This document shows, piece by piece, positions 41,977 to 47,815 of a DNA stretch of 64,000 bases. A model generated the notes under the pieces. That model saw only the letters and a list, made by a program, of their open reading frames with translations, was not told the origin of the DNA and searched no databases. This DNA is from a virus. The position numbers were made by a program, and so were the translations under genes. The DNA lies in the IMG/VR virus record IMGVR_UViG_3300033149_006612, positions 1-64,000 of that record. One strand, 5' to 3'. Within the stretch, counting starts at the first letter, position 1. The number at the start of each line of letters is the position of its first letter.

Positions 41977-42006
41977 TTGACAAAACCTATCCATCTGTGG
42001 TATAAT
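41977..42006 (+). promoter_or_regulatory. Sigma-70 promoter for the ribozyme operon
   Basis: Perfect TTGACA (41977-41982), 18-bp spacer and TATAAT (42001-42006). Transcription would start near 42013 and read the small-gene operon and ribozymes. Confidence 0.88.
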
Positions 42007-42031
42007 AAAAAGTATGGAAAGGAGAAACACG

Positions 42032-42163
42032 ATGAACAAAGACCCACCGAGGACAATACAGCCCCTGTCGCAAGGCAAGCCACAGGAATCCTACGCTCCC
42101 ACGATGGAGACAGGCAGGGGGTCACGAAGAGGTCGAGCCAGTACGGGTCTGCCAGGACGCTAG
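42032..42163 (+). CDS. Small basic protein, 43 residues
   Basis: First ATG after the promoter, with AAAGGAG 7 nt upstream, the same leader style as later genes. Encodes MNKDPPRTIQPLSQ..., basic and proline/glycine-rich. No motif. Ends at TAG 42161. Confidence 0.5.
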   Translation: MNKDPPRTIQPLSQGKPQESYAPTMETGRGSRRGRASTGLPGR

Positions 42164-42298
42164 AGGCCGAGGCAACGGATGACGCCGAGCAGAGCCACCC
42201 GGAGAGCGATGAAGACCTCGATTGAACGTGAGCGAATCGGGTAAGCCCACACCATGTGGCCGCCACCCGACCGAGCACCAGGTGCCGGTATAGTAAAT
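42164..42298 (+). other. Structured untranslated stretch before the type III ribozyme
   Basis: 135 nt with no convincing gene. A TCGGGT/ACCCGA stem (42237-42270) encloses CCAC/GTGG, and a second stem ACCG..GCAC/GTGC..CGGT (42270-42289) follows, 10 nt before the ribozyme. May aid ribozyme folding or be a separate RNA element. Confidence 0.4.
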
Positions 42299-42365
42299 GA
42301 CCTGTCCGGACATACCGATTGAGTCCGCTGATGAGGATGGGGGTAGGGTCCCATCGAAACAGGTC
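42299..42365 (+). ncRNA. Type III hammerhead ribozyme
   Basis: Stem III GACCTGT/ACAGGTC (42299-42305 with 42359-42365), cleavage predicted after C42306 (GUC triplet), stem I CGGAC/GTCCG, core CTGATGA, stem II GATGGG/CCCATC, then GAAA. One extra G sits between A9 and stem II; natural hammerheads with an extra residue there are known (CChMVd, sLTSV). Loop I (TACC) and loop II (GGTA) can pair as a kissing interaction. It lies in the 5' leader of the gene at 42378. Confidence 0.92.
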
Positions 42366-42377
42366 TTGGAGGTTACC

Positions 42378-42665
42378 ATGGCAGAGCGTTATACTCCTCA
42401 AGTTGGAGATCATTTAGTCCCCGACGGCTGGGGGTTTGGTGAGAATCTGGAAGCCGATGACGGGTATAGTGACGGCAGTTTCCCCGGATGTGAATTCCGG
42501 CTTCCGGCGGGCCTTGACCGTGTATACCGGCTTGCAGTCAACGTGAAGGTCACCGGCGGTGACCACATCGTGAACTTCGGCAGGTATCGGTCCCGCTGCA
42601 GGATCGAGTTTGTCGGTGACGGTGAACCGAGCACCTTCACCGGTGGATGGATCTACCACTCCTAA
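42378..42665 (+). CDS. Hypothetical protein, 95 residues
   Basis: ATG 42378 with GGAGG 5 nt upstream (MAERYTPQVGDHLVPDGWG). Beta-rich (FRLPAGLDRVYRLAVNVKV, ending TFTGGWIYHS). No family recognised. It is bracketed by a type III hammerhead in its leader and a type II hammerhead starting 1 nt after its stop. Confidence 0.6.
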   Translation: MAERYTPQVGDHLVPDGWGFGENLEADDGYSDGSFPGCEFRLPAGLDRVYRLAVNVKVTGGDHIVNFGRYRSRCRIEFVGDGEPSTFTGGWIYHS

Positions 42666-42666
42666 A

Positions 42667-42730
42667 GCCGAAACCAGCCGAAAGGCTGGTCTGCTGGAGA
42701 TAACCTCCCAGCACTGATGATGGCAGGTTA
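42667..42730 (+). ncRNA. Type II hammerhead ribozyme A
   Basis: Stem II GCC (42667) / GGC (42722), GAAA, stem III CCAGCC-GAAA-GGCTGG, cleavage predicted after C42691, stem I TGCTGG/CCAGCA with loop AGATAACCTC, core CTGATGA (42714-42720) plus one extra T. Loop I TAACCT (42701-42706) can pair with AGGTTA (42725-42730), a pseudoknot. Starts one nucleotide after the upstream stop codon. Confidence 0.93.
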
Positions 42731-42750
42731 CCATCGAGGAGGTTTTTACC

Positions 42751-43023
42751 ATGGAATGCCCACTTTGCGGTTCCCGCGGTTCTCGTTTCCTTAAGCCCCA
42801 TCCGAGCGTTTTCGGCGTTTACGAATGCCGAAAATGCCGAGCATTGTTCGGCGAATGCTACCTGGGAGATAGCTATTCGCTAGTGTCTCCCATGTGGTCC
42901 CGGCAGGACGTCGAGGATACCGAATGCCGGTACTTCGATTTCATCTGTGTGGGATCCGGTGGGATCACACGCAGGCATGGTTGGTTCAATCCGGCTGACG
43001 GTCGGATCGTTCAAACCGGTTGA
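42751..43023 (+). CDS. Zinc-ribbon phage protein
   Basis: 90 residues; MECPLCGSRGSRFLK and YECRKCRALFGECYLGDS form a C4 ribbon, followed by YFDFICVGSGGITRRHGW. I recognise this small family from other phages and mobile elements; its function is not known to me. GAGGAGG upstream. Flanked by hammerheads A and B. Confidence 0.7.
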   Translation: MECPLCGSRGSRFLKPHPSVFGVYECRKCRALFGECYLGDSYSLVSPMWSRQDVEDTECRYFDFICVGSGGITRRHGWFNPADGRIVQTG

Positions 43024-43027
43024 GTAA

Positions 43028-43093
43028 GCCGAAACCGGCTAGAGATAGCCGGTCTAGCCGGGATGACCTCCGGCTACTGATGATGGTAGGTCA
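43028..43093 (+). ncRNA. Type II hammerhead ribozyme B
   Basis: Stem II GCC (43028) / GGT (43085), GAAA, stem III CCGGCTA-GAGA-TAGCCGG, cleavage predicted after C43054, stem I TAGCCGG/CCGGCTA, core CTGATGA (43077-43083) plus an extra T. Loop I TGACCT (43064-43069) pairs with AGGTCA (43088-43093); relative to copy A this is a compensatory change. Starts 4 nt after the stop. Confidence 0.93.
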
Positions 43094-43128
43094 CTCTAAC
43101 GTTAAAAGAAAATAAAAGGAGAAACACG

Positions 43129-43536
43129 ATGAACAACGAGGTAATCGAAATCCAAGTCGCTTGCACTGACAACATCACGGCTAAATGGGCCGTGATTAAA
43201 CTGATGGTTAAGACGTCGGTCATCGACGTCTTAAGCAGATGCGATAACGGCGTCTACAAACCGCAGGTCAAGACCGGAGAGGAGATGTTCGCAATCCGTC
43301 CGGTAGTGGATGCGGTCGACATCGAGATGATCTGCCCCACCGGGGTGGTCAAGTGGGTCGCCAAACCCGGGGAGGAGATGTTCGCATTGGTCCGCCCGAT
43401 AGTGGAGGCGATCGACATCGAGCTGGGTTGCCCCACCGGGCAGATCAAGTGGGTCGTCAAAACCGACGGGATCGTCTCCATCCACGCCGTCGATGACCAG
43501 GGAATGGAGACGGTATCAATCATCAACCTGTGCTGA
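43129..43536 (+). CDS. Protein with internal duplication
   Basis: 135 residues. Two about 33-residue repeats share GEEMFA..RP.V.A.DIE..CPTG..KWV.K (residues about 50-115), the rest strand-rich. No family recognised. AAAGGAG precedes the start. Flanked by hammerheads B and C. Confidence 0.6.
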   Translation: MNNEVIEIQVACTDNITAKWAVIKLMVKTSVIDVLSRCDNGVYKPQVKTGEEMFAIRPVVDAVDIEMICPTGVVKWVAKPGEEMFALVRPIVEAIDIELGCPTGQIKWVVKTDGIVSIHAVDDQGMETVSIINLC

Positions 43537-43538
43537 CA

Positions 43539-43607
43539 GCCGAAATGCCGGGGGACCTCCCCCGGCATCTGCCGGAGATGACCTCCCGGCACTGATGAGG
43601 CAGGTCA
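43539..43607 (+). ncRNA. Type II hammerhead ribozyme C
   Basis: Stem II GCC (43539) / GGC (43599), GAAA, stem III TGCCGGGGG-ACCT-CCCCCGGCA, cleavage predicted after C43569, stem I TGCCGG/CCGGCA with loop AGATGACCTC, canonical core CTGATGA (43592-43598) with no extra base. Loop I TGACCT (43579-43584) pairs with AGGTCA (43602-43607). Starts 2 nt after the stop. Confidence 0.94.
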
Positions 43608-43639
43608 AATAATTCACCAAATCAGAAAGGAGAAAACAG

Positions 43640-43834: not shown

Positions 43835-43869
43835 AAGCCAATTAATAATCGTGAATCTGTTACCTATTA

Positions 43870-43895
43870 GTGCGCCGGGGGTGCCCCCGGCGCAC
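43870..43895 (+). terminator. Strong GC hairpin before the MoxR-like gene
   Basis: Perfect 12-bp inverted repeat (GTGCGCCGGGGG / CCCCCGGCGCAC). No T tract, so it is more likely an mRNA stabiliser or processing boundary than an intrinsic terminator; it takes the place a ribozyme holds at the other boundaries. Confidence 0.45.
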
Positions 43896-43924
43896 AGGAG
43901 AAACGCACACACAGGAGGAACACG

Positions 43925-45043
43925 ATGGACACCAGACAGAAAATTAAAAAGATATACACCACCCTTAACGATCAACTGGTAGAGAGGTCCGAAGTCCTAC
44001 AAGGGTCGATAATAGCGATCCTTGCTCGGAAACACCTCTTCATGATCGGGCCTCCGGGTACGGCCAAATCACTCGGAATCGAGAAGTTCTGCGAGTCAAT
44101 CTCCGGCATGACATACTTCGAGGAACTGATGACCCAGCAGACAAAGCCCGAGGACCTCTTCGGTCCGATCAAAGTCTCAGCGTATAGAGAAGATCGATAT
44201 GAGCGGAACGTCGAAGGATTCCTACCGACTGCCGACATCGCCTTTCTCGACGAGATCTTTAAGGCCGGTGGACCAAATCTTAATCCGCTGCTGAGGCTGA
44301 CGGATGAAACGCGCAAATTCCGGAACGGCAAACCCCAGATGGAGCGATGTCCGCTGAACAGCCTGTTTGCCGCCAGTAATGAATTCCCCGAGAACGCAGC
44401 CGAACTCAGCGCTCTTTGGGACCGGCTGCTACTCCGATATGTGGTGGACGACATCGTCGATGATTCCAACTTCGAAGCCATGATGGCCTTGGAGGAAATC
44501 AAAATCGAGCACACCATCACCAAGGAGGAGCTCCGGCAAGCCCAGGAGGAGGTCGACCGGGTAAAGATCACACCAGAAATCATCCATGTGCTGACCGAAC
44601 TCCGCTCGAAGCTCCGGAAGGAAGGATATATATTTTCTCCCCGGAGATGGCGGGAGTCAAAGCAGGTCCTCAGGGCTCATGCCTGGTTCCACGGCCGGGA
44701 CGAGGTCTCCGAGGATGATCTTGAAATCCTGGCCGCGGTCCTCTGGGACAGGCCCGAGCAACGGCGCGAGGTACTTCGCATCTTGATGTCCACCACCAAT
44801 CCCGACACTGCCACAGCCCTAGCGTTGTTCGACGACATCCAAGAGATCATTGATGACATCGAAAAGCAGCCGGACGAATCGGCCAAACTCGCTGCCAGTC
44901 AGGAGGCCGTAGTCAAACTCCGGGATATGATCCCGCTGTTTGACAACTTCCGGCCCCACGCTAAGATTTTTGAATTAAAAAATCAGGCCATAGAGATGCA
45001 ACGTGCCGTCGTCCGGAGGTATTTCGGAATTAACATTAACTGA
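43925..45043 (+). CDS. MoxR-type AAA+ ATPase (RavA-like)
   Basis: 372 residues. Walker A GPPGTAKS (about 42-49), Walker B IAFLDEIF (about 105-112), sensor 1 FAASNEFPE, arginine-finger region WDRLLLRY, and SPRRWRE in the lid. MoxR proteins remodel partners together with VWA-domain proteins; the next gene encodes one. GGAGG upstream. Confidence 0.9.
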   Translation: MDTRQKIKKIYTTLNDQLVERSEVLQGSIIAILARKHLFMIGPPGTAKSLGIEKFCESISGMTYFEELMTQQTKPEDLFGPIKVSAYREDRYERNVEGFLPTADIAFLDEIFKAGGPNLNPLLRLTDETRKFRNGKPQMERCPLNSLFAASNEFPENAAELSALWDRLLLRYVVDDIVDDSNFEAMMALEEIKIEHTITKEELRQAQEEVDRVKITPEIIHVLTELRSKLRKEGYIFSPRRWRESKQVLRAHAWFHGRDEVSEDDLEILAAVLWDRPEQRREVLRILMSTTNPDTATALALFDDIQEIIDDIEKQPDESAKLAASQEAVVKLRDMIPLFDNFRPHAKIFELKNQAIEMQRAVVRRYFGININ

Positions 45044-45053
45044 GGAGGCAGTC

Positions 45054-46490
45054 ATGTTCGTAACCAATGTTGACGCATTCGACCGGAGGACATTCGAGGA
45101 CATCGCTCCCCGGTCCAGCAAGGTGGAGGACATCCGGTCCTCCGCCGAATATTCCGAATACGGAGACCTGCTAGAGGATCTCATGGTTGACGGCTTCGGC
45201 TCCCTGTACAAATACGCCCCCCGGGTTCTGGAAGACGTCCCACCGGAACGGATTCTCTCCAAGCGGGTCATTGAACAGTGGCAACAGTTACCGGAATGGC
45301 AGCAGTTCCGGAAGTTCACCGTAGGTGACGAGATCGTCAGTATGGGAGCCGTAGACGCCGTGTACCGGGTGTTCAAGGAGATGCCGGTCGAGGTTAAACG
45401 ACGCCAACGGGAACTCCAGGACTTCTCGGATCGGCTGACCGAAATGTTGAATTCCGACGATACTGATTTTGGTAGTGACGAATTCAAGGATGCGGTAACC
45501 GACATGGTCGAAGCCGGTAATAGGGTGGATCAAGCCCTGGATGCCGACGAGGACCGGATACGAAAATTGTGCCGGGTGGCACTTCGAGAGGCCGCGGATG
45601 AGGCAGAGATCGAGGGAAAGGCAATGCTGGCACTCGGTTTTGATGACTCTACCGGGGAACTTAACGGTTCCCACAAGGACGATCGAATCAAAATAGCCAG
45701 CATGCTGCAGAACAATCCCAAGCTTCGAGAAATCGTTAAACTCGCCGGTCGATTCTGCTATGTGGCGGATAAAAAGCAGCGGGAGAAATCCGAATACGCC
45801 CGGTCCCAGGTATCCGGTATTGAATTCGGAGACGACCTGCAGCGGGTAACCCCCTCCGATATGGCCCTCCTGTCCGATAAAGACTTAGAGGAATTGTTCT
45901 GGCTGAAGTACATCGAATCAGGACTCCAGCTCTACAAGATCACCGGCACCGAGACCCTAGGTAAAGGACCCGTCGTGATAATGGTCGACTGTTCCGGTAG
46001 TATGGCGGGTCAGAAGGATATATGGGCAAAAGCCATGGCCCTAGCGGGTTATTCCATAGCCCGGAAGCAAAACCGGGACTTCGCCTTTCTGTTATACAAC
46101 ACCGAGGTCAGGAAACAGATCTACCTTAAATCCGGCACCGGCAAACGGAACATGACCGGTCTGGCCGAGATTCTATCATCCGGCGTCGGCGGTGGTACCG
46201 ATTTCGAAGTTCCCATCACATACGCCATGCGGGAGGTCCTAACCAGGTCCGAATTTACCAAGGCCGACATCATCTTCATCTCGGACGGTTACTACATGAT
46301 CGGTGACGACTGGTTCCGGGATTATCAAACCCGAAAGGACGGTATGGAATTCGCGTTCTGGGGAATTCAAATCGGCCCCAGGCTGAGAGGTATGGACGCG
46401 TTGGATAGACTGAGCGACGACGTGGTTTACCTGGACGGTGACATCCTGGCCAATCAGGACCGGGCTTTTGACATGGCCTTTACCATCTAA
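45054..46490 (+). CDS. VWA-domain protein, MoxR partner (ViaA-like)
   Basis: 478 residues from ATG 45054, with GAGGAGG upstream. Helical N-terminal two thirds, then a von Willebrand A domain with MIDAS DCSGS near 312-316 (VVIMVDCSGSMAG), GGGTDFEVP and IIFISDGYY. With the MoxR ATPase it would form a RavA-ViaA-like chaperone pair. The phage role is unknown; control of a host complex or virion component is possible. Confidence 0.88.
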   Translation: MFVTNVDAFDRRTFEDIAPRSSKVEDIRSSAEYSEYGDLLEDLMVDGFGSLYKYAPRVLEDVPPERILSKRVIEQWQQLPEWQQFRKFTVGDEIVSMGAVDAVYRVFKEMPVEVKRRQRELQDFSDRLTEMLNSDDTDFGSDEFKDAVTDMVEAGNRVDQALDADEDRIRKLCRVALREAADEAEIEGKAMLALGFDDSTGELNGSHKDDRIKIASMLQNNPKLREIVKLAGRFCYVADKKQREKSEYARSQVSGIEFGDDLQRVTPSDMALLSDKDLEELFWLKYIESGLQLYKITGTETLGKGPVVIMVDCSGSMAGQKDIWAKAMALAGYSIARKQNRDFAFLLYNTEVRKQIYLKSGTGKRNMTGLAEILSSGVGGGTDFEVPITYAMREVLTRSEFTKADIIFISDGYYMIGDDWFRDYQTRKDGMEFAFWGIQIGPRLRGMDALDRLSDDVVYLDGDILANQDRAFDMAFTI

Positions 46491-46582
46491 CCCGTCAATG
46501 AAAACAAATCTCAACCATGGAATCCGTTAATGAAGCCGGGGAAGGATGTCCCCGGCAAAGCCCATCATCGAGGAGAAAGACG

Positions 46583-47815
46583 ATGAAACAAAAAGAGGAA
46601 ATCAAGCGAACAATCGCAGAACAGGCGAACGGCCTCCCCATACTGGGCCACCTGGTCTGGTGGACCGTCCACAAGGTGGAAATCCCCAGACTGGACTTGG
46701 AAGACCTGCTCGCGAAGACCGTCGGCATTCAATACATGCCCACCGAGCACCGGAAGGCTAAAGCTCTCAAGAGGGGCTTAGAATCGATGAGGGAAGCTGG
46801 CCTGCTGGACCTCATCCGTGATGACAAGGTCATGACGGCTTATCAGATCACCGATAAGATGATCGACGTCAAGGAGGTCAAGGCCGACTACCGCCGCAAG
46901 GCCGCGGTCCAATTCGTGAAGCGGGGAGACGGGGTCCCGATGGGTGGGGAAATCCGGGTATACGGTGATGTGGACAGGAAGGAGGTCCAAGAACGGTTGG
47001 ACCACTACCTGCAGGTGTACACCGCCGATGACATCCGAATGATCCTCAAGGCATATGTCAGAGACAATGCCGGGATCAACCTGAATGAGAACGGCCTCCT
47101 CTACTTCGTCCCCGAGCCTGAGGTAGTTGACGTCATGAAGGTTTTCCTGGAAGCCGTCGGTGGTGACCTTGGGCTCTCCCCGGTTACCGACACCGAATAC
47201 GTCAAGACCAACATGGTCACTCGGATTCGTGATGAACTGGAGGCCGAAATCGAATCGGCCGCCGAGGAGGTCAAGAGGATGAGCAGCAGCAAGTTCACCA
47301 GAGGACTGACCTTCAAAGCCCGGTTAAAGGAATTCGCCGCTCTCAAGAACAGATGTGAGACGTACAGCGAGCTACTGAAGTTGGATGCCGAGACCATGAT
47401 TCAGAAGGTGTCCGAGCTCCAGGAATCGGTAGAGGATTCCCTAATGGGAATCCACGTGGATTACCCCCAGATGAAGGAGTTCCCCTATGGCACCCGGGTC
47501 AGATACACCGGCGACGCCCCTAAACTGCTCATCAACCTTAACGGCAGCACTACCGGAACGGTAATCGGGTATCTCAATTCCAAGACCGGGAAACAATACG
47601 TCAAAGTTCGGTTCGATACTAAAGATATCAAGGTCATCCGGCCGATTGCACCGGGCAACCTGGAGATCACCGAACGCGCCGTGGAAACCGATCTGACGGA
47701 GATGGATGAGGATCAATTGCTGGCCAGGTTCGAAGTCTCCCCCGGCTGGTACCAGATCCCCGGTCACACCAAAAAAGTCCGGAAGGCGGAAGCCGTTCAA
47801 TTACTGAAAGCGTAA
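46583..47815 (+). CDS. Hypothetical protein of the MoxR-VWA operon
   Basis: 410 residues from ATG 46583, preceded by GAGGAG. An N-terminal part like HTH-bearing proteins, a mid region (KFTRGLTFKARLKEFAALKNR, helical), and a C-terminal RYTGDAPKLLINLNG beta part. No certain family; possibly DUF6744-like. A GCCGGGG/CCCCGGC hairpin lies in its leader. Confidence 0.55.
   Translation: MKQKEEIKRTIAEQANGLPILGHLVWWTVHKVEIPRLDLEDLLAKTVGIQYMPTEHRKAKALKRGLESMREAGLLDLIRDDKVMTAYQITDKMIDVKEVKADYRRKAAVQFVKRGDGVPMGGEIRVYGDVDRKEVQERLDHYLQVYTADDIRMILKAYVRDNAGINLNENGLLYFVPEPEVVDVMKVFLEAVGGDLGLSPVTDTEYVKTNMVTRIRDELEAEIESAAEEVKRMSSSKFTRGLTFKARLKEFAALKNRCETYSELLKLDAETMIQKVSELQESVEDSLMGIHVDYPQMKEFPYGTRVRYTGDAPKLLINLNGSTTGTVIGYLNSKTGKQYVKVRFDTKDIKVIRPIAPGNLEITERAVETDLTEMDEDQLLARFEVSPGWYQIPGHTKKVRKAEAVQLLKA

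Follow-up and report, generated by a model that had tools for sequence, protein, structure and literature searches.

Hammerhead ribozymes at gene boundaries of a phage operon and their probable part in forming mRNA 3' ends

Clusters of hammerhead ribozymes in phage genomes have been described before. The main text of Perreault et al. (2011; PMC3088659) describes prophages in which single genes are flanked by multiple hammerheads and proposes that the ribozymes cut the transcript into gene-length mRNAs, with cleavage seen in vitro for three arrays and in E. coli for one; 4 of the 18 consensus hammerheads tested there were inactive, and circular or spliced array products were looked for and, as reported in that text, none were found. 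The same text describes the haloviruses HF1 and HF2, in which a hammerhead lies 13 nt ahead of an operon's first ORF and a main transcript has its mapped 5' end at most 3 nt from the hammerhead cut; this match suggests that hammerheads in leaders are able to act in cells. What hammerheads do in bacteria and phages is described in the field as an open question (PMC6155905; PMC10085705).

The array that we describe here belongs to this published kind, being a cluster of phage hammerheads that flank genes on one strand. A sequence-only reading of the locus had stated that no such tandem array was known, a claim to novelty that fails because PMC3088659, in its main text, had already reported both the clusters and the same transcript processing. 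Such arrays are frequent in IMG/VR: one narrow pattern recovered 105 contigs, and as many as 11 type II copies are present in a single record. In the ten arrays that we examined closely (that of the present phage and nine others) every hammerhead is on the coding strand, and one gene is the most frequent content of the interval between hammerheads (27 of 54). The array phage itself has four copies and one gene per interval.

The array and its operon

The source record, IMGVR_UViG_3300033149_006612, is an 80,182-bp IMG/VR virus, and its first 64 kb form the window, the whole stretch of DNA that was analysed. The record is probably a complete genome, since it carries a 114-bp exact terminal repeat, and its proteins, which include a baseplate wedge, a large terminase, a DNA polymerase and DnaB, identify a contractile-tailed phage. 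A nucleotide-similarity search among annotated phages returned no relatives; by protein, the closest relative is one almost identical contig, in which the three type II copies are unchanged letter for letter. The features of the array region are these:

41977-42006, + strand: predicted sigma-70-type promoter (TTGACA, 18-nt spacer, TATAAT, extended -10 TG; 12/12 consensus match)
42013-42306, + strand: leader RNA predicted to be freed by the first cut, ~294 nt, with hairpins at ~42238-42290 in the predicted fold
42299-42365, + strand: type III hammerhead, predicted cut after 42306, 12 nt ahead of the gene 1 ATG; descriptor score 19.4
42378-42665, + strand: gene 1, 95 aa; a relative of 49% identity occurs in other contigs with type II hammerheads
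42667-42730, + strand: type II hammerhead no. 1, predicted cut after 42691, 1 nt past the gene 1 stop; Rfam RF02276, 43.1 bits
42751-43023, + strand: gene 2, 90 aa, resembling a zinc ribbon below threshold
43028-43093, + strand: type II hammerhead no. 2, predicted cut after 43054, 4 nt past the gene 2 stop; Rfam RF02276, 46.5 bits
43129-43536, + strand: gene 3, 135 aa
43539-43607, + strand: type II hammerhead no. 3, predicted cut after 43569, 2 nt past the gene 3 stop; Rfam RF02276, 44.0 bits
43640-43834, + strand: gene 4, 64 aa, the last gene of the array
43870-43895, + strand: 11-bp perfect hairpin after gene 4, without a U tract; -26.5 kcal/mol for 43866-43900

Much of this anatomy had been set out by the sequence-only reading. 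Its coordinates and types, one type III and three type II hammerheads, are borne out by Rfam for the type II copies and by a structure descriptor for all four; the descriptor gives the same four cut positions; the starts of the type II copies 1, 4 and 2 nt past three stop codons were confirmed from the sequence; and the consensus promoter that it placed ahead of the array is a perfect sigma-70 consensus.

The two Rfam models that it had named for a scan gave a divided answer. Hammerhead_II (RF02276, gathering cut-off 37 bits) matches all three type II copies on the + strand, at 42666-42732 (43.1 bits), 43027-43095 (46.5 bits) and 43538-43609 (44.0 bits), and the scan of the whole 80,182-bp record shows no hammerheads beyond these three. 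Hammerhead_3 (RF00008, cut-off 48.5 bits) gives no match above threshold at 42299-42365. The same model passes only one type III ribozyme among 22 other phage loci, which hold dozens of them, and because other phage type III ribozymes nearly all fail in this way, we conclude that our copy is left out by the threshold and not by its structure. Annotation pipelines miss nearly all phage type III ribozymes owing to the RF00008 cut-off.

The descriptor required the full core and three stems and was applied to the whole record on both strands. It found exactly four hammerheads in 80,182 bp, the type III at 42299-42365 and the type II copies at 42667-42724, 43028-43087 and 43539-43601, all on the coding strand and inside 1.3 kb. 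The type II scores in the array are 15.4, 18.4 and 20.0. As a control for chance, random sequence matched to the phage in dinucleotide content was scanned, 1.09 Gb in all; the best type III score was 18 (three hits, and none at 19), and type II scores of at least 15 were seen only 13 times, so that four hammerheads in 1.3 kb are not a product of chance.

The type III copy has the core, closed stems I and II and an open stem III, with all three stems present in the predicted fold, and its loops I and II can pair (UACC/GGUA). In the type II copies the core (CUGAUGA, GAAA, H17 after U16.1) is present, stems I and III are closed and stem II is open. In each type II copy loop I can also pair with the 3' tail in a pseudoknot of six pairs, UAACCU/AGGUUA in no. 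1 and UGACCU/AGGUCA in nos. 2 and 3, the difference between them amounting to one covarying pair within the array. Over 141 type II ribozymes loop I matches the tail in 4.55 pairs on average; when tails are swapped the figure is 3.08 +/- 0.08.

An extra nucleotide stands between A9 and stem II in three of the four copies (U in type II nos. 1 and 2, G in the type III) and may slow their cleavage. An insertion at this junction occurs in 46 of 170 surveyed type II ribozymes (mostly U), 2 of 213 of type I and 2 of 71 of type III. It is the one feature which favours regarding the copies as folded but inactive hairpins, of use only for stalling exonucleases or for spacing the genes. Against this, the three type II copies, together with hundreds of relatives, keep every catalytic nucleotide, the A15.1-U16.1 pair, H17 and the pseudoknot, and we consider inactive spacers very improbable. 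A separate idea, that loop I of type II no. 1 (AACCUCC) is an anti-Shine-Dalgarno switch able to form 7 pairs with the next ribosome-binding site (GGAGGUU), was dropped because 141 type II ribozymes average 3.66 such pairs and 3.70 with swapped sites.

The surrounding genes offer several further observations. The leader has a plausible ribosome-binding site and an ATG at 42032 that opens a 43-aa frame, which codon statistics do not favour; the binding site and start context in the leader (42013-42298), AAGGAGAAACACGATGAACAA, is the same as that of gene 3, and the best codon statistics in this interval belong to a different frame without a start. The leader frame may be a decayed or frameshifted duplicate. 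The frame of gene 1 is open in the 5' direction across the entire type III ribozyme, as far as position 42297, where there is an ATG that has no ribosome-binding site; the start at 42378 is supported by homolog alignment. Beyond gene 4, the 43870-43895 hairpin stands ahead of a MoxR ATPase gene, and the region 43925-47815 on the 3' side of the array encodes a bpMoxR ATPase, a VWA protein and a DUF6744 protein. In L257 a type I hammerhead lies 0 nt past a stop codon and 38 nt ahead of a distant MoxR-VWA pair. A tie between MoxR-VWA genes and hammerheads was rejected, there being one weak match only in 50 hammerhead records.

Placement across phage hammerheads

In order to compare this array with others, we surveyed 716 phage hammerheads in IMG/VR, made up of a first set of 454 (213 type I, 170 type II and 71 type III, from pattern scans plus the array phage) and a hold-out of 262 from two further scans, for which scanner, windows and thresholds were left unchanged. 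It is important to note how this sample was drawn. For types I and III the patterns specified letters of stem II, and for type II letters of the stems and core, so the upstream flank played no part in selection and certain lineages were sampled; the contigs come from one collection, genes were called by simple ORF rules, and near-duplicates were removed by shared flanking words and not by phylogeny.

A ribozyme was counted as abutting a stop codon if the stop of an ORF of at least 50 aa fell within -10 to +15 nt of it, a condition that a random position meets in 7.7% of cases. After removal of near-duplicates, 65% of type I ribozymes in the first set and 73% in the hold-out abut a stop in this sense, whereas for type III the figures are 14% and 13%; for type II they are 75% and 67%, the latter being a weak figure because the hold-out has only 12 type II ribozymes. 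Part of the type II abutment may be compact packing, since these ribozymes fill nearly the whole spacer, and part of that of type I is built in, since the core CUGAUGA itself contains stop codons: among the 303 type I ribozymes with a nearby stop, it lies on the first core UGA in 74, within stem I in 85 and before the ribozyme in 144. In those 74 the upstream gene has the first UGA of the catalytic core as its stop codon.

Type III ribozymes tend instead to open arrays. The order in the array phage is leader, type III, gene, type II, gene, type II, gene, type II, gene, and then the 11-bp hairpin, with no ribozyme; the order III-II-II-II recurs in L439, where the type II copies lie -1, 0 and -1 nt from stops. 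With the array phage excluded, 18 of 20 independent mixed arrays begin with a type III, against 8 expected from random order (p ~3e-6), as do 7 of 8 in the hold-out alone (p = 0.007). Several of these array-opening copies lie 10-25 nt before the first start codon and have no gene for 450-900 nt upstream. Enrichment of promoters before leader-type III ribozymes was weak (5 of 28, with 1.4 expected), and the known large ornate RNAs GOLLD and ROOL were rejected as occupants of this region, there being no Rfam match. The related phages L318, L334, L379, L402, L405 and L448 share a conserved stretch of ~200 nt of leader RNA before the leader-type III, for which Rfam also gives no match. An unannotated type I hammerhead lies ahead of a tRNA cluster in the cultured Xanthomonas phage RiverRider (L573, 3034-3083).

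The position of a type III close to a start codon bears on one alternative, namely that the hammerheads are active 5' insulators, natural counterparts of RiboJ, which trim the leader and give each gene a fixed hairpin beside its ribosome-binding site, with the 3' ends incidental. The array's type III, 12 nt ahead of its ATG, fits this, as do the type II tails, which run 20-40 nt into the next ribosome-binding site, and there is precedent for a hammerhead before a first ORF in HF1/HF2, as described in the main text of PMC3088659.

What lies on either side of the cut argues otherwise. The sequence-only reading had each cut leave the upstream mRNA with the stem III hairpin; this holds for the type II copies but not for the type III, whose stem III is open and whose cut leaves the upstream product without a hairpin. 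Such a hairpin is nevertheless commonly found next to type III ribozymes as an addition. The 35 nt on their 5' side fold at z < -2 in 46% (44% in the hold-out), the corresponding value being 7-10% at types I and II, as at ordinary regions around stop and start codons. Of the strong hairpins, 42 of 55 in the first set, near-duplicates removed, and 33 of 47 in the hold-out come to within 0 or 1 nt of the ribozyme. Where a stop codon lies 12-110 nt upstream of the type III, a perfect hairpin of at least six pairs abuts 61% of the ribozymes, against 6.5% of control positions, while for leader-like type III ribozymes with no gene end within 150 nt the figure is 10%, against 11.5% of control positions, this split being made post hoc with both survey sets pooled. 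In the sequences that were inspected, these hairpins do not resemble intrinsic terminators, because stem III sequence follows them and not a U tract.

Type I ribozymes, which are common in arrays, supply the converse. No hairpin on their downstream product was found within 35 nt (z < -2 in 7%, both survey sets), and that product has a bare 5' end. Since the intergenic type III has a hairpin added and the type I leaves its 5' end bare, the output common to all designs is an upstream mRNA that ends 3' in a hairpin, whereas one at the 5' end of the downstream message is optional. The claim that both ends of each message are capped by hairpins was thus too strong: it stands as regards the general 3' hairpin upstream, and falls for the type III upstream product and for the type I 5' end. 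For the insulator explanation, the bare ends left by type I, and a hairpin added before the intergenic type III, to the benefit of the upstream mRNA only, are both awkward; the explanation suits the leader-type III better than the hammerhead set as a whole, and as an account of that set we think it unlikely.

The same placement bears on the suggestion that the hammerheads are selfish or neutral boundary modules, marking gene cassettes and serving as recombination sites, with cleavage tolerated and of no useful role. The neighbouring genes are small and not conserved, gene 1 has a relative in other hammerhead contigs that lacks a ribozyme at its own stop, and stems are repeated within some arrays, all of which would suit boundary modules of this sort. 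Type-specific placement, however, is not expected of neutral elements, nor are a dedicated hairpin that appears only with an upstream gene and the coding-strand-only orientation in ten arrays, and we regard this suggestion as distinctly improbable.

Proposed processing of the transcript

Hammerhead cleavage produces a 2',3'-cyclic phosphate and a 5'-OH, and hairpins in general resist 3' exonucleases. Our preferred reading, which we hold to be rather likely, is that four functional hammerheads cut the nascent operon transcript by themselves and that, in this phage as in others, their main job is probably the making of protected mRNA 3' ends without terminating transcription. The array probably chops one long message into single-gene messages, as the sequence-only reading proposed; that proposal is the best available and fits the anatomy, once its capping of both ends and its absence of precedent are set aside.

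On this preferred reading the copies would cleave inside the cell as follows. The type III would trim the leader of ~294 nt and leave gene 1 with a hairpin-headed 5'-OH end near its ribosome-binding site. The type II copies, cutting just past the stops, would release genes 1, 2 and 3 as separate mRNAs of ~385, 363 and 515 nt, each with its stop codon, a 3' hairpin and a blocked 2',3'-cyclic-phosphate end, while the polymerase would continue to the next gene after each cut. The last small mRNA would be capped by the hairpin at 43870-43895 in place of a ribozyme. With a ribosome on the stop codon, the 3' strand of stem II would be covered, as would part of stem III, and for this reason cutting may wait for translation termination. 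The hairpin and the blocked end would shield each 3' end from exonucleases, so that neighbours in the operon could have separate message lifetimes and decay independently.

Adjacent cuts would also leave a 5'-OH and a 2',3'-cyclic phosphate on one RNA, the right ends for a host RtcB ligase, and the hairpins could, to judge from their sequences, bring these ends together. There is thus a further scenario in which paired cuts free single-gene RNAs that RtcB joins into circular mRNAs. We give it only a slim chance: RtcB was not found in the array phage nor in 25 other array-bearing records, and the search for circular or spliced array products reported in the main text of PMC3088659 yielded none.

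For phage hammerheads more widely, the survey suggests a grammar in which types I and II sit behind stops, type III opens the leader, and an intergenic type III is given its own hairpin. That this grammar reflects widespread 3'-end formation without termination is a proposition on which we are evenly divided. The placement rules turn the open question of what prokaryotic hammerheads do into a specific claim. If that claim is true, forming 3' ends with RNA only allows hundreds of phages to bypass the RNases and terminators of the host, the grammar would answer what prokaryotic hammerheads are for, and the design could be borrowed for operons with independently tuned messages.

Comparison with known systems

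Synthetic insulators of the RiboJ type combine a hammerhead with a hairpin near the ribosome-binding site and are engineered for 5' ends. The leader type III of the array phage resembles them, whereas most of the array lies behind stop codons instead. The theta ribozymes of gut phages (PMC10879173) are likewise phage ribozymes with a likely role in RNA end-processing, in their case of tRNA 3' ends, but they have an HDV-like fold and lie beside tRNAs, not between protein genes. The hammerhead of HF1/HF2, HHphage, is similarly placed to our type III (13 nt before the first ORF and 12 nt, respectively); as described in the main text of PMC3088659, it is single and has a variant core, whereas the type III of the array phage has a canonical core and an array behind it.

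The three type II copies match RF02276 over its full length, two of them differing by an extra U after CUGAUGA. The nearest likeness is to the clusters of Perreault et al. (2011), for example the triple array at ardA of Agrobacterium tumefaciens, where, according to the main text, several hammerheads flank single small genes of phage operons and hammerhead types are mixed, as they are here. The main-text passages of that paper give no rule relating type to position, and the terms "stop codon" and "exonuclease" are absent from its main text, while its figures and supplements may already show part of the placement pattern. Set beside the clusters described in that text, the present phage is distinguished by its III-II-II-II order, with the type III in the leader.
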